From the NCBI GenBank assembly GCA_020444545.1, contig JAHLKT010000001.1, positions 62,001-126,000 of the forward strand: a DNA stretch of 64,000 bases. Direction: 5' to 3'. Within the stretch, counting starts at the first letter, position 1, and every line of letters starts with the position of its first letter. The notes under the pieces were generated by a model that was given only the letters and a program-made list of their open reading frames with translations, was not told the origin of the DNA and did not search any database. Positions 35,220 to 61,088 of the stretch are shown here, one piece after another. Source of the stretch: Desulfarculaceae bacterium. GTDB lineage: Bacteria; Desulfobacterota; Desulfarculia; Desulfarculales; Desulfarculaceae. The translations under genes were made by a program, and so were the position numbers.

Positions 35220-35645
35220 ATGATCGTCTTTGACCTCCAGTGCGACCAGGGTCACGCCTTTGAAGGTTGGTTCGACGACCTCAAGGACCTGGAAAAGCAG
35301 CTAAAGAAGAAGCTGGTCGCCTGCCCGGTGTGCGGCAGCGAAGCGGTGAAACGGGTGCCCTCGGCCTTTGCCATCTCCAAGGGACGCAGCCAGGCGGACC
35401 ACGAGAAGGCGGCCAAGATGCTGGGCCGCTCCTTGCAGCGCTATTTCCAGGAAAACTTCGAGGACGTGGGGCCGCAGTTCGCCAAGGAGGCGCTCAAGAT
35501 CCACTACGGGGTCAGCGAGTCGCGCAACATCCGGGGGGTCTCCACCAGCGAGGAAGAGAAAATGCTCCAAGAAGAGGGCGTGGACTTCTTCAAGGTGGGA
35601 ACCGAGGCGCCGCCCCAAAGCGACAGCAGCGAGGAAGACGACTAG
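35220..35645 (+). CDS. DUF1178 family protein
   Basis: A 141-residue DUF1178 protein. The N-terminus is a zinc-ribbon-like region (MIVFDLQCDQGHAFEGWFDD, later ACPVCGSEAVKRVPSAFAIS). The middle contains GPQFAKEALKIHYGVSE, characteristic of the family, and the C-terminus is acidic. The function of the family is unknown. It sits 37 bases after trmI. Its stop codon overlaps the stop of a convergent small gene on the minus strand. Confidence 0.88.
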   Translation: MIVFDLQCDQGHAFEGWFDDLKDLEKQLKKKLVACPVCGSEAVKRVPSAFAISKGRSQADHEKAAKMLGRSLQRYFQENFEDVGPQFAKEALKIHYGVSESRNIRGVSTSEEEKMLQEEGVDFFKVGTEAPPQSDSSEEDD

Positions 35646-35833
35646 GTCTCGGTCTCCCGGGGCTTTTGCCTGCCCTGCCCGGCCGCCTCGGCCGCGCAGG
35701 GCGCGTTTTTGGCTACCAGACGTTTCAGCTTGGCGCAGTAGAGGGCCGCGAAGGTGCGGCAGGAACCCGCGCCGTCCACCGCCTCGTCGCGGGGGAAGCT
35801 GGCTTCCGGACAGCTGAGATCGCACCAACGCAT
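35642..35833 (-). CDS. Small cysteine-rich protein, convergent with DUF1178 gene
   Basis: A 63-residue frame starting MRWCDLSCPEASFPRDEAVD, with further cysteines in GSCRTFAALYC and KNAPC. The spacing Cys4, Cys8, then three more suggests metal binding. GGGGAG lies 7 bases before the ATG at 35833, and an in-frame extension to 35869 exists. The pattern WCxxxCPxASFP...GSCRTF...LYC looks familiar from small conserved deltaproteobacterial proteins, but I cannot name it. Its stop shares bases with that of the DUF1178 gene. Confidence 0.65.
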   Translation of the reverse strand: MRWCDLSCPEASFPRDEAVDGAGSCRTFAALYCAKLKRLVAKNAPCAAEAAGQGRQKPRETET

Positions 35834-35935: not shown

Positions 35936-37129
35936 ATGAAAAAATTATCAGAGATTATTGCCAATAATGAAGAATGGCTGATGGCCCGGATCCTTGCCTA
36001 TGCCAAGGAACACGACTATACCATGTACACCTCCACCCTGATGGAGGCCTGGCGCTTGTCCATATCCGGGCTTTCGGAATCTATTCTAACGGCCATCCAA
36101 AATTACCCGGATATTCCGGAGCTCTCGCCCGAAGAGGAGTTTGCCGACGACCCGGTGGCCCGCTTCGGCATTTATGAAGCCCAAAAACACCGCCGGCGGG
36201 GCGTGCCTCTGCCCATGTTCCTGGGGCTGATGAAGTACTACCGCCAATCCTACCTGGACTTGCTGGCCGCCCAGGACTGGCCGCCTGACACCTTGGCGCG
36301 CCACGCCCTTTTCCTCAACCGGGTCTTCGATCGCATTGAGATCAGCTTTGTCGCCGAATGGGCGGACAAAAGCCCGGGGCAGTCGTTGAGTGAGTTGCAA
36401 GCCGGCAACCGGTTCATGACCAACGAAAAAAACAAGTACCTGACCATTTTCGAGAGCATTCCGCTGCCGGTAATCATCCTCAACCCGGACGAAACCATCG
36501 ACAACATGAACCTGGCCGCGGCCATGTTTTTACGGGGAGAGGCCCTGGCCGGGGGGCATTATTACGCCCCGCCCGAGGAAATATCCCCAAAACATGCGGC
36601 CGCCGACCAGGGGCGCCTGGACGCGGTCGCCCTGTTCGACCTATTGCCTTGGCTGCCCCGGGAGCTGGACCGTTGCAAAAATGAAGGCCTGAAAAACACT
36701 CATTTTACGAAAGAGATCAACATCCTGGACCAAACCAAGCTCTTGGGGGTCACCATAACCAAGAGCCTCGACATCAGCGATAAATTCACCGGGACCATAA
36801 TCATCTTCGAGGACCTCACCCCCATCGCAAGAGAGCATCAGGCCCTGCTCGAACAAGAAAAGCTGAACGCCGCCTTGGAAACCGTGGGCATGGTCTATCA
36901 CGAACTCACCCAACCCCTGCAAGTGATACTCGGCATGTCGGAAATCATGCAACTCGACCTCTCCTTCTCCCTGGAGGGAAAAGAGCAGTTGGAGCAGATC
37001 GGCCTTGCCGCGCGCAAGCTCGCCAGCATAATAAATAAATTAGACAAAATCAAAACTTACAAGAACAAGCCCTACGTAGGCCAAGCCTCGATTCTAGACC
37101 TGGAGGAATCGGTCAAGAGCGAGGATTGA
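35936..37129 (+). CDS. RsbRD_N-PAS-DHp sensor protein lacking a kinase ATPase domain
   Basis: A 397-residue signalling protein. Residues about 8-150 resemble an RsbT co-antagonist (RsbRD) N-terminal domain (SPEEEFADDPVARFGIYEAQ, LPMFLGLMKYYRQSYLDLL). A PAS domain follows (about 165-290, FESIPLPVIILNPDETIDNM). The end is a HisKA-type DHp helix pair with the phosphoacceptor H322 in VYHELTQPLQVILGMSE. The protein stops after KPYVGQASILDLEESVKSED, with no N, G1 or G2 boxes of a HATPase domain. The following 190 bases hold no remnant of one. The region 35870-36000 is AT-richer than its surroundings. It shares its DHp and C-terminal signature with the protein at 60570-61088. Confidence 0.85.
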   Translation: MKKLSEIIANNEEWLMARILAYAKEHDYTMYTSTLMEAWRLSISGLSESILTAIQNYPDIPELSPEEEFADDPVARFGIYEAQKHRRRGVPLPMFLGLMKYYRQSYLDLLAAQDWPPDTLARHALFLNRVFDRIEISFVAEWADKSPGQSLSELQAGNRFMTNEKNKYLTIFESIPLPVIILNPDETIDNMNLAAAMFLRGEALAGGHYYAPPEEISPKHAAADQGRLDAVALFDLLPWLPRELDRCKNEGLKNTHFTKEINILDQTKLLGVTITKSLDISDKFTGTIIIFEDLTPIAREHQALLEQEKLNAALETVGMVYHELTQPLQVILGMSEIMQLDLSFSLEGKEQLEQIGLAARKLASIINKLDKIKTYKNKPYVGQASILDLEESVKSED

Positions 37130-37211
37130 TCCGGTGCGGGCCCCAACGGCGGGAAGGTACGGCGGCCACGGACAAGGGCCGTTCCAGGCGAGGCCCCGGC
37201 CCCTCCGCCGG

Positions 37212-37260
37212 TTGACAAAGACCACCCCCCTTGATAGCTTGAAAAGCTGGAATTTTCGAG
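37212..37260 (+). promoter_or_regulatory. Promoter and palindrome upstream of cinA-thpR-recA-alaS
   Basis: TTGACA (37212-37217), 17 bases, TAGCTT (37235-37240). An 8-7-8 palindrome CTTGAAAA...TTTTCGAG (37238-37260, one mismatch) overlaps the -10 and start point, where a repressor such as LexA would act. It does not match any SOS box I know. Confidence 0.5.
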
Positions 37261-37318
37261 AATGACCGGCGGTTTGGAGCCGGTTATCCGGGGGCGGGGC
37301 AACACGGAGCGAGGCGCT

Positions 37319-38581
37319 ATGCGCGGGGCGATCATCTGCATCGGCGACGAGCTGGTCAGCGGCCGGGTGGCCGACACCAACTCCCGTTTCGCCCTGAGCC
37401 GCCTAAGCCCCCTGGGCTTCCGCTTCGGCTCGGTGCTCATGGTGGGCGACGACATGGAAGCCATCGCCGGGGCCTTGGACCAGGCCCTGGCCTCGGCCGA
37501 CTTCGTGTTGGTCAGCGGCGGCTTGGGGGCCACGGAAGACGACATAACCGCCTCCGCCGCGGCCCGCCACTTCGGCCTGGCCCTGGCCGAGAGCCGACGC
37601 ATGATCGACAACCTGCGCGAGTGCTTCGCGGCGGTGGGGCGCAACCTGCCGCCCGGGGTGGAGCGCATGGCCCAGCTGCCCCAAGGGGCCGAGGTGCTGG
37701 ACAAGGCCTGCGCCGGATTCCGGCTCACCACTCCGGGCGACCAGCCGGTATACTTCCTCCCCGGGGTGCCGGAGGAGAACCGCCGCCTTTTGGAGCGGCT
37801 GGTGCTGCCCGCCCTGGTGCAGCGCTTCGCGCCCGAGCAGGTGGCGGTGAGCCGCAAGTTCACCGTCTTCGGCCTGGGCGAGAGCCAGATCGGCCTCAGG
37901 CTGGCGGGCCTCACCTCGGGCTACCCCGAGGTGACGGTGGGCTTCTACCCGGTGTTCCCCTGCGAGCAGGTGGTGCTGAGCACCCGTAGCCGCCAACCGG
38001 AGGCAGCCGCCGCCCTGCTGGAACGCCTGGTGGACGAGGCGTCCCACCGTTTGGAAGGTTTGGTGGTGGCTCACGGCGCGGACACCCTGGCCGACGTGGT
38101 GGCCCAACGCATGATCGCCGAGAAGCTGACCCTGGCCCTGGCCGAGTCCTGCACCGGCGGTCTCATCGGCCACCTGGTCACCGGCGTGGCCGGGTCCAGC
38201 GCCTTTTTCGAGCGCGGCCTGGTCACCTACTCCAACCGGGCCAAGATGGAGCTGTTGGGCGTGAGTCCCGAGACCCTGGAGGCCCATGGCGCGGTGAGCG
38301 CCGAGACCGCGGCCGAGATGGCCGAGGGCGCGCGCCGCGAGGCGGGCACGGACATAGGCCTGTCGGTCACCGGCATCGCCGGGCCCGACGGCGGCACACC
38401 GGAAAAGCCGGTGGGCACCGTGTTCTTCGGCCTGGCCGCCGAGGGCGGGGTCAAGACCCTGCACCGGCGTTTCTTGGCCTTCGCGGACAGCCGCGCGCAG
38501 ATAAAGCAGCTGAGCGCCCACACCGCCCTGGACCTGCTGCGGCGCTATTTGGAAGACCATGCGCTGCTTCATCGCCCTTGA
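37319..38581 (+). CDS. cinA: CinA family protein (nicotinamide-nucleotide amidohydrolase)
   Basis: A 420-residue CinA. The N-terminal molybdopterin-binding-like domain begins AIICIGDELVSGRVADTNSR and contains VSGGLGATEDDITA. The C-terminal amidohydrolase domain has LALAESCTGGLIGHLVTGVAG and VTGIAGPDGGTPEKPVGTV. It deamidates NMN in pyridine-nucleotide salvage and may cleave ADP-ribose; it is also often linked with recA in operons, as here. ATG at 37319 is preferred over the in-frame 37262 because GGAG precedes it and homology starts there. Confidence 0.94.
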   Translation: MRGAIICIGDELVSGRVADTNSRFALSRLSPLGFRFGSVLMVGDDMEAIAGALDQALASADFVLVSGGLGATEDDITASAAARHFGLALAESRRMIDNLRECFAAVGRNLPPGVERMAQLPQGAEVLDKACAGFRLTTPGDQPVYFLPGVPEENRRLLERLVLPALVQRFAPEQVAVSRKFTVFGLGESQIGLRLAGLTSGYPEVTVGFYPVFPCEQVVLSTRSRQPEAAAALLERLVDEASHRLEGLVVAHGADTLADVVAQRMIAEKLTLALAESCTGGLIGHLVTGVAGSSAFFERGLVTYSNRAKMELLGVSPETLEAHGAVSAETAAEMAEGARREAGTDIGLSVTGIAGPDGGTPEKPVGTVFFGLAAEGGVKTLHRRFLAFADSRAQIKQLSAHTALDLLRRYLEDHALLHRP

Positions 38582-60569: not shown

Positions 60570-61088
60570 TCAGTCCAGGTCCAGGATGTGCTGGTCCTTG
60601 TAGTAGGGCTTGCGGCGGTAGGCAGTTATCCGGTTGAGCTTGGTAATGAGCTGGGCCAGCTTCTTGGCGCTGTCCAGGATGTTGCTCAGGTACTTGTGCA
60701 GCTTGGAGTCTTCCGGCACATCGAGAAGGGCCATCTCGGCGGCCCCCATGATCACCTGAAGGGGCTGGTTGAACTCGTGGCTCACCGTCCCCGCCGTCTC
60801 CAGGACCACCTTCAGGCGCTCCGCTTCCAGCCGCCGGGCATACTCCCGGGACGACTCCCGCCAGCGGCGAACCGCGAAGGCCCCGAAGGCCAAGGACAGG
60901 ATGGCCAAGAGAACCACCACCTCGTCCAGTTCGTAGTCCTCGTAGTGGTGCACCGTGTCCACCAGCCACTCGAAAACGTCCAGCCGGGAGGAGACCCAAA
61001 ACACCACGCCCGCAATGAGCAGGATGACCAGCAGCTCCCGCATGGGATGGGAGGACGGCGACTTGGGGTTTTGCTCAGGGGCAGACAT
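60570..61088 (-). CDS. Membrane-bound DHp-only protein lacking a kinase ATPase domain
   Basis: A 172-residue protein with two membrane helices (about 17-34, RELLVILLIAGVVFWV, and 56-74, EVVVLLAILSLAFGAFAV) and a short coil. A HisKA/DHp helix pair follows with H104 in VSHEFNQPLQVIMGAAEMAL. The chain ends just after AYRRKPYYKDQHILDLD, without any HATPase motif. AGAGG precedes the ATG. The DHp and the ending (KPY....ILDL) match the end of the protein at 35936-37129. It is convergent with usp. A truncated kinase is possible, but no ATPase remnant is seen downstream. Confidence 0.82.
   Translation of the reverse strand: MSAPEQNPKSPSSHPMRELLVILLIAGVVFWVSSRLDVFEWLVDTVHHYEDYELDEVVVLLAILSLAFGAFAVRRWRESSREYARRLEAERLKVVLETAGTVSHEFNQPLQVIMGAAEMALLDVPEDSKLHKYLSNILDSAKKLAQLITKLNRITAYRRKPYYKDQHILDLD

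Follow-up and report, generated by a model that had tools for sequence, protein, structure and literature searches.

The sensor gene and its neighbourhood

The window, i.e., the whole stretch of 64,000 nucleotides that was analysed, derives from contig JAHLKT010000001.1 of a Desulfarculaceae bacterium (GCA_020444545.1) and contains the sensor gene that is listed with its domains in Table 1. Its neighbours are housekeeping genes, which we take to be glnA, trmI, fmdB and cinA as recognised from their translations, and a two-component partner is absent from the neighbourhood. The GC content of the sensor gene is 0.55 vs. 0.61 and 0.67 on its two sides. Scans of the window or the gene region for tRNAs, Rfam families and tandem repeats were empty. 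Between fmdB and the sensor gene lies a small Cys-containing ORF of 63 aa on the minus strand (window 35642-35833, start MRWCDLSCPEASFP), a counterpart of which is recognisable in the fmdB-cinA gap of all five genus genomes without the sensor gene (5/5).

Table 1. Features of the sensor gene and of a related gene, in window coordinates
Feature	Position	Strand	Details
ATPase-less sensor gene	35936..37129	+	397 aa, ATG to TGA; both orthologs share start and end
N-terminal all-helical domain, residues 1-147	35936..36376	+	predicted globin fold, divergent from Pfam Protoglobin (AlphaFold2, VIA-align)
His85 codon	36188..36190	+	on the invariant (proximal) His of protoglobin domains (hhalign)
PAS domain, residues about 166-294	36431..36817	+	low-confidence insert at 204-227 (Pfam, model)
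DHp (HisKA) helical hairpin, residues 295-373	36818..37054	+	Pfam, model
His322 (phosphoacceptor) codon	36899..36901	+	family alignment
Gln326 (H+4) codon	36911-36913	+	family alignment
Conserved C-terminal tail KPY...ILDL	37064..37096	+	predicted beta-hairpin; end of family module
Stop codon of the sensor ORF	37127-37129	+	TGA
Spacer up to cinA	37130..37321	+	ATPase remnant: none
Second family member	60570..61088	-	172 aa, DHp-only, hydrophobic N-terminus

The initial annotation had described a sensor that ends after the phosphoacceptor (DHp) domain without an ATPase, and had seen no ATPase remnant in the next 190 bases; both statements were borne out by the ORF, Pfam, the downstream frames and a genome-wide search. 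Pfam located HisKA at residues 317-369 of the target (25.4 bits, just below the cut-off of 26.9), matched PAS weakly and gave no HATPase match in the protein, while in the two orthologs (L010 and L011) HisKA scored 31.9 and 35.1 bits, both above the cut-off. ATPase was absent from frames 1-3 between the stop codon and cinA (37322), and the search of the whole genome with HATPase_c gave no match at window 37100-37400. The combination of HisKA and HATPase_c that defines a sensor histidine kinase is not found in the target, which is a HisKA-only protein, with a C-terminal HisKA that carries the phosphoacceptor His and with HATPase neither in the protein nor just downstream. Its motif reads HELTQPL, with Gln at H+4, and departs from the HisKA phosphatase motif H-E/D-x-x-T/N.

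A search of 98 genomes revealed full orthologs in two genomes of the same genus (G005 and G007; 59 and 56% identity), with alignments that begin at residue 1 of the target and chains that end 0 and 13 residues beyond the aligned end. Both orthologs occupy the same fmdB-cinA slot as the target. Within the genus, cinA was found in 8/8 genomes and the order glnA-trmI-fmdB-cinA is kept where the contig allows (in G003 only trmI to cinA is within reach). The sensor gene is present between fmdB and cinA in three of the eight genomes, all three without ATPase, and absent there from the other five, among them G001, the closest relative by CinA (88%). An intact kinase at this locus in relatives, named beforehand as evidence to the contrary, was looked for in the fmdB-cinA slot of the eight genus genomes and none was found. 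A pseudogene or frameshift was ruled out by the orthologs ending at the same place, and for the same reason the target is not considered a truncated kinase. Judged by these sequence comparisons, the sensor gene is an accessory, fast-evolving gene that is conserved in truncated form. G001 and G002 have another gene between fmdB and cinA (L275 and L278), by eye a pyridoxamine-oxidase-like flavin protein; the slot looks like a site of gene turnover.

Predicted sensor and output domains

The initial annotation had assigned RsbRD_N and PAS domains to the sensing part. The PAS domain was retained by weak Pfam matches and by the model, while Pfam did not match RsbRD_N at E values of up to 10, either in the protein or in 7/7 N-domains scanned alone, though the predicted fold is a globin as in RsbR. 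The AlphaFold2 model of the target (pLDDT 76.4, 36 sequences) consists of a helical N-domain, PAS, DHp and a tail hairpin. VIA-align matched residues 1-147 to 3pmc (Z 13.8), 2w31, 4uiq and 4zvb (13.2), HemAT (12.4), 3zta (12.1) and RsbR-N (10.9). Going by their titles, the matches listed for the N-domain are globins or proteins related to them, e.g., phycobiliproteins. With 2w31, 127 residues were aligned at Z 13.2 and rmsd 2.4, a Z that is at the edge, as helical folds can reach about 13 by common arrangement. In independent hhalign profile comparisons with 24 protoglobin domains of the phylum, His85 fell on the single invariant column (E 0.0004 and 0.0002, calculated for one comparison, at a probability of only 36 and 48%). 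Of 16 N-domains, 14 have this His and 15 share Tyr28. Pfam Protoglobin gave no match in the protein or in the N-domains scanned alone, and a PDB sequence search with the N-domain profile returned chance matches only and no globin. We regard the N-domain as a predicted globin-type sensor. According to PMC4976288, a proximal His and a distal Tyr distinguish haem from non-haem RsbR globins, and the N-domain could plausibly bind haem and serve as a gas or redox sensor.

The same N-domain was found in 12/198 phylum genomes, with GGDEF, a complete kinase, LuxR-type GerE or an ATPase-less DHp as outputs. The target's own genome (G000) encodes a paralog of this sensor at C1:949449-951173 (L030:4449-6173, L292), where the globin-like N-domain is joined to PAS domains and to DNA-binding of the LuxR type.

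Regarding the output, the model of a relative that consists of DHp alone (L036; mean pLDDT 84.9) comprises a helical hairpin and then the tail beta-hairpin. In the target, the tail hairpin is placed at residues 377-380 and 384-387, with low confidence there (52-59). Both models are monomers, and dimerisation would be expected by analogy with the DHp family. Among solved structures, the DHp model was matched best by the DHp of GacS in complex with RetS (Z 9.0, rmsd 1.4, 59 residues); such a Z lies within the range that common arrangements give for helical hairpins. Spo0B and ChpT rows were absent from the VIA-align list, an absence that carries no weight. The best PDB sequence matches of the family module profile described below (LvrB, FixL chimeras, CckA and ZraS) end near position 66-72 of 86, while HK853-type chains align to position 83, suggesting that the tail may sit where the catalytic domain would begin.

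The tail-marked DHp family

The proposed search for C-terminal HisKA proteins with a KPY-x5-ILDL-type tail and no HATPase yielded a large family of 183 distinct modules. The profile A1 was built from 35 modules of the 98-genome search that match residues about 285-394 and end there. On the target's own genome it gave five matches at E < 1e-24 reaching the tail and 40 ordinary ones at E > 1e-11, almost all ending far short of the tail. In this genome a HATPase follows within 600 nt after 49/56 HisKA matches and is missing after seven, five of which are tail-marked, the target being one of the five; HisKA tallies thus exceed the number of true kinases. Two weak HisKA matches outside the family, also with no HATPase within 600 nt, are located at G000 C3:185182-185367 and C3:219107-219310. 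Homologs of the second family member in the window were found in G001 and G006 (L018, L041).

For the pattern scan A1 was too diverse, and it was replaced by the narrower profile A2 with the seed A[AVI]CHE[LMF]NQ. A protein was assigned to the family when the module profile was matched through the Y-x5-I-[LI]-D tail and the chain ended within 29 residues. From 266 loci 224 distinct modules were obtained, 184 reaching the tail and 40 not; L227 (score 34.1), an ordinary kinase with a weak alignment to the tail, was moved out of the 184, leaving 183. Profile scores are at least 76.5 for the 183 members vs. at most 47.0 for the 40. The chain ends at most 29 residues past the module in 180/183 members (five residues past it in the target) and continues into further domains in three. 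HATPase is carried by 38 of the 40 modules not reaching the tail, and the set of ordinary kinases used below (n = 39) was formed by adding L227 and omitting L174:2364-3497 and L255, which have no tail and no HATPase in the ORF. Among the 183 family proteins HATPase is present in two, L250:1633-3093 and L265:4148-5965, where the module has Thr at H+4 and precedes a second DHp and a HATPase on one chain. Furthermore, L262:4456-6162 combines a receiver, a tail-marked DHp, a second receiver and GGDEF in one chain, and the phospho-Asp of the second receiver is, by eye, apparently replaced.

Pfam analysis of 131 members identified HisKA in 129, Response_reg in 41 and HDOD in 4, with the most frequent PAS model in 68 and the most frequent GAF model in 18; HATPase was found in 0/131 by the dedicated HATPase model and was absent among the 25 of 48 Pfam families listed. 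Matches at E 1e-20 or better occur in about 74/297 phylum genomes (hand count), and at E 1e-8, where ordinary kinases are included, in 280/297. The named loci belong mostly to Desulfobacterota; Calditrichota, Latescibacterota and Raymondbacteria are each represented by one MAG so labelled. Given this large, uncharacterised family built alike, the target is probably a genuine component of the relay type rather than a defective kinase.

The phosphoacceptor His and the Pro at H+5 are each present in 183/183 members. Since the seed fixes H+1, H+3 and H+4, residues at these positions were counted in the 101 unseeded members alone. Among these, which are mostly the best-scoring ones and represent related sequences rather than independent events, His was found in 101, Glu at H+1 in 90, Gln at H+4 in 93, Thr, Asn or Ser at H+4 in 8 and Pro at H+5 in 101; in the tail, Tyr was found in 94 (Phe in 7), Ile in 96 and Asp in 98. 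At these loci, H+4 of the 39 ordinary kinases is occupied by Asn (32), Thr (3), Ser (2) or Gln (2). FixL-type proteins likewise have Gln at H+4, and an argument on phosphatase activity is thus an analogy with a few tested kinases. For HisKA proteins, Willett and Kirby (PMC3510030) describe an acidic H+1 as a requirement of kinase activity and a Thr or Asn at H+4 as one of phosphatase activity, and for CrdS the same source gives no measurable phosphatase activity with N375Q and names the acidic H+1 as a kinase-specific residue. By this rule the family would have retained the needs of His phosphorylation and lost those of receiver dephosphorylation, and strong phosphatase activity is improbable for the target, which has Gln instead of Thr/Asn at H+4.

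An N-terminal receiver is present in 56/183 members and its Asp is kept in all 56. A same-strand two-component neighbour within about 200 nt was found for 18/29 seeded and 5/24 unseeded receiver-DHp members that were testable, and for 5/48 seeded and 6/63 unseeded testable members without a receiver; 8/80 A2 loci that gave no separate module, most of which look like repeat records, were omitted from the neighbour count. A HATPase protein is located directly upstream of a receiver-DHp gene at nine loci, which are not independent, as seven of them are labelled Desulfosarcina; the four of these upstream proteins scanned with Pfam are HisKA_2 kinases. Such two-gene loci are L128:3671-5276 and the orthologous L127, L130, L135, L138, L141, L149, L152 and L180. 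A stand-alone receiver directly follows the module gene at L139, L178 and L189, and a non-receiver member at L129. All five Pfam-scanned kinases from family loci (5/5) have a phosphoacceptor domain of their own.

Proposed role and relation to known systems

We propose, at about even chances, that the target is a sensor-gated dimeric histidine phosphotransfer (HPt-like) protein that is phosphorylated in trans. The sensor would comprise the predicted globin-fold domain plus PAS, and the DHp output would serve as a histidine phosphotransfer domain and not as half a kinase. The protein would dimerise via the DHp helices. His322 would receive its phosphate in trans, from the catalytic domain of a different kinase or, by back-transfer, from a receiver that is already phosphorylated. 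Signals perceived by the globin/PAS part could then alter how readily the His takes phosphate or hands it to a receiver. The invariant His and H+5 Pro argue for this reading, being more than simple dimerisation needs, as do the acidic H+1 (90/101) and the Gln at H+4 (93/101 vs. 2/39 ordinary kinases). In addition, receiver-DHp members make up 56/183 of the family, all with the receiver Asp, and the operons of relatives put the module between two-component steps, with a HisKA_2 kinase upstream or stand-alone receivers downstream. Spo0B and ChpT provide a precedent. However, the target has no adjacent kinase or receiver, in common with all but 6/63 of the testable unseeded non-receiver members, and the apparent loss of the phospho-Asp from the second receiver of L262 also speaks against phosphotransfer.

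Among the roles listed in the initial annotation, acceptance of phosphate from another kinase thus fits best, with the invariant His, the acidic H+1 and the relay-like architectures and operons, while there is little in favour of mixed dimers or an antagonist. Conservation of H and H+1 would equally fit phosphorylation within mixed dimers. A mixed-dimer or docking regulator, whose DHp pairs with that of a full kinase or fills its catalytic domain so as to raise or lower kinase activity (cf. RetS on GacS), nevertheless appears rather unlikely: the GacS-RetS complex is the best structural match, L250 and L265 carry the module directly ahead of a complete DHp-HATPase, and the 49 complete kinases among the 56 HisKA domains of the genome are candidate partners, but a Z of 9 is common for helical hairpins, and docking alone needs neither an invariant His nor an invariant Pro. 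We also consider it improbable that the protein is a stand-alone response-regulator phosphatase, in which a DHp dimer would bind a phosphorylated receiver and speed its hydrolysis under control of the sensor. EnvZ reportedly shows phosphatase activity without its catalytic domain, going by the title of Zhu et al. 2000, and 8/101 unseeded members have Thr, Asn or Ser at H+4. Such a role was also suggested for archaeal HisKA-only proteins (Galperin et al. 2018, PMC5847659), but the target and 93/101 unseeded members have Gln at H+4, the very change that abolished CrdS phosphatase activity, and 90/101 keep the acidic H+1, which in CrdS is given as needed for kinase and not phosphatase activity (PMC3510030).

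The chain might also be one half of a split kinase that receives its catalytic domain in trans from a separate ATPase-only protein, which seems very unlikely. Of the 66 HATPase matches in the genome, 17 have no HisKA match within 600 nt upstream, but HATPase lists without HisKA include gyrase, MutL, Hsp90, CheA, HisKA_2 and HisKA_3 kinases and anti-sigma kinases, and the 17 may be such proteins. EnvZ does function when split, as cited in PMC3591291; no HATPase match, and hence no adjacent catalytic-only partner, is found near the target gene, and the five scanned kinases of family loci each have their own phosphoacceptor domain. Finally, the low GC (0.55 amid 0.61-0.67) and the presence in just three of eight genus genomes could suggest a decayed or mis-sequenced kinase, but orthologs at 56-59% identity end identically, no ATPase remnant is present and 180/183 relatives end likewise, so that this explanation is extremely improbable.

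Returning to phosphotransfer, a broader and more doubtful possibility, which we put forward tentatively, is that the tail-marked modules constitute a distinct dimeric phosphotransfer class that arose from DHp, in which the hairpin replaced the ATPase and Gln at H+4 ended phosphatase activity. Placed behind receivers, PAS, GAF, HDOD or globin sensors, they would form relays (kinase, receiver, DHp, receiver) in Desulfobacterota, with the target as a haem-globin-gated relay node. If true, the target would let a gas or redox signal steer phosphate flow without being a kinase.

HisKA proteins without HATPase have already been published as a class. They account for 1556 of 42417 HisKA proteins in SMART (PMC3591291), phosphoacceptor or phosphatase roles were suggested for the archaeal ones (Galperin et al. 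2018, PMC5847659), and P2CS classifies HisKA-only proteins as 'phosphotransfer proteins' (PMC2716373). Like the target, the non-enzymatic HK-like proteins of these accounts have an N-terminal sensor or receiver and a C-terminal HisKA with the conserved His and no HATPase; they are an architectural class described there mainly for archaea, whereas here we deal with a single bacterial family with a hairpin tail and Gln at H+4. Neither the tail-marked family, nor the H+4 contrast, nor a globin-type sensor on a HisKA-only protein was found in the literature searched. HisKA-only proteins are known by annotation and usually filed as kinases, by which HisKA counts overstate kinase numbers (7/56 matches here), and the terminal tail, the H+4 change and the receiver-linked operon members make the question of relay, phosphatase or docking testable.

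The DHp of FixL is of the HExxQPL kind, as in the target, and FixL chimeras and LvrB are the best PDB sequence matches of the module; however, FixL has a HATPase, and these matches end near 66-67 of 86, ahead of the tail. Spo0B and ChpT are not known to have autokinase activity and carry a degenerate catalytic-like C-terminal domain, which is absent from the target, where the chain ends after the hairpin; they also have no sensor domains, unlike the target. What they share with it is a DHp with a phosphorylatable His, which in these DHp-type phosphotransferases serves a relay (PMC5231405). Globin-coupled sensors (HemAT, EcDosC, AfGcHK) resemble the target in the predicted globin fold (Z about 12-13), the His at the position of the proximal His and the modular outputs including GGDEF, but the target has no Pfam Protoglobin match, its output is an ATPase-less DHp and its haem binding is putative. 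The N-terminal non-haem globin domain of RsbR also shares the globin fold with the target's N-domain (Z 10.9); Bacillus RsbR is described as being without the haem residues (PMC4976288), whereas N-domains of the target type keep the His in 14/16.
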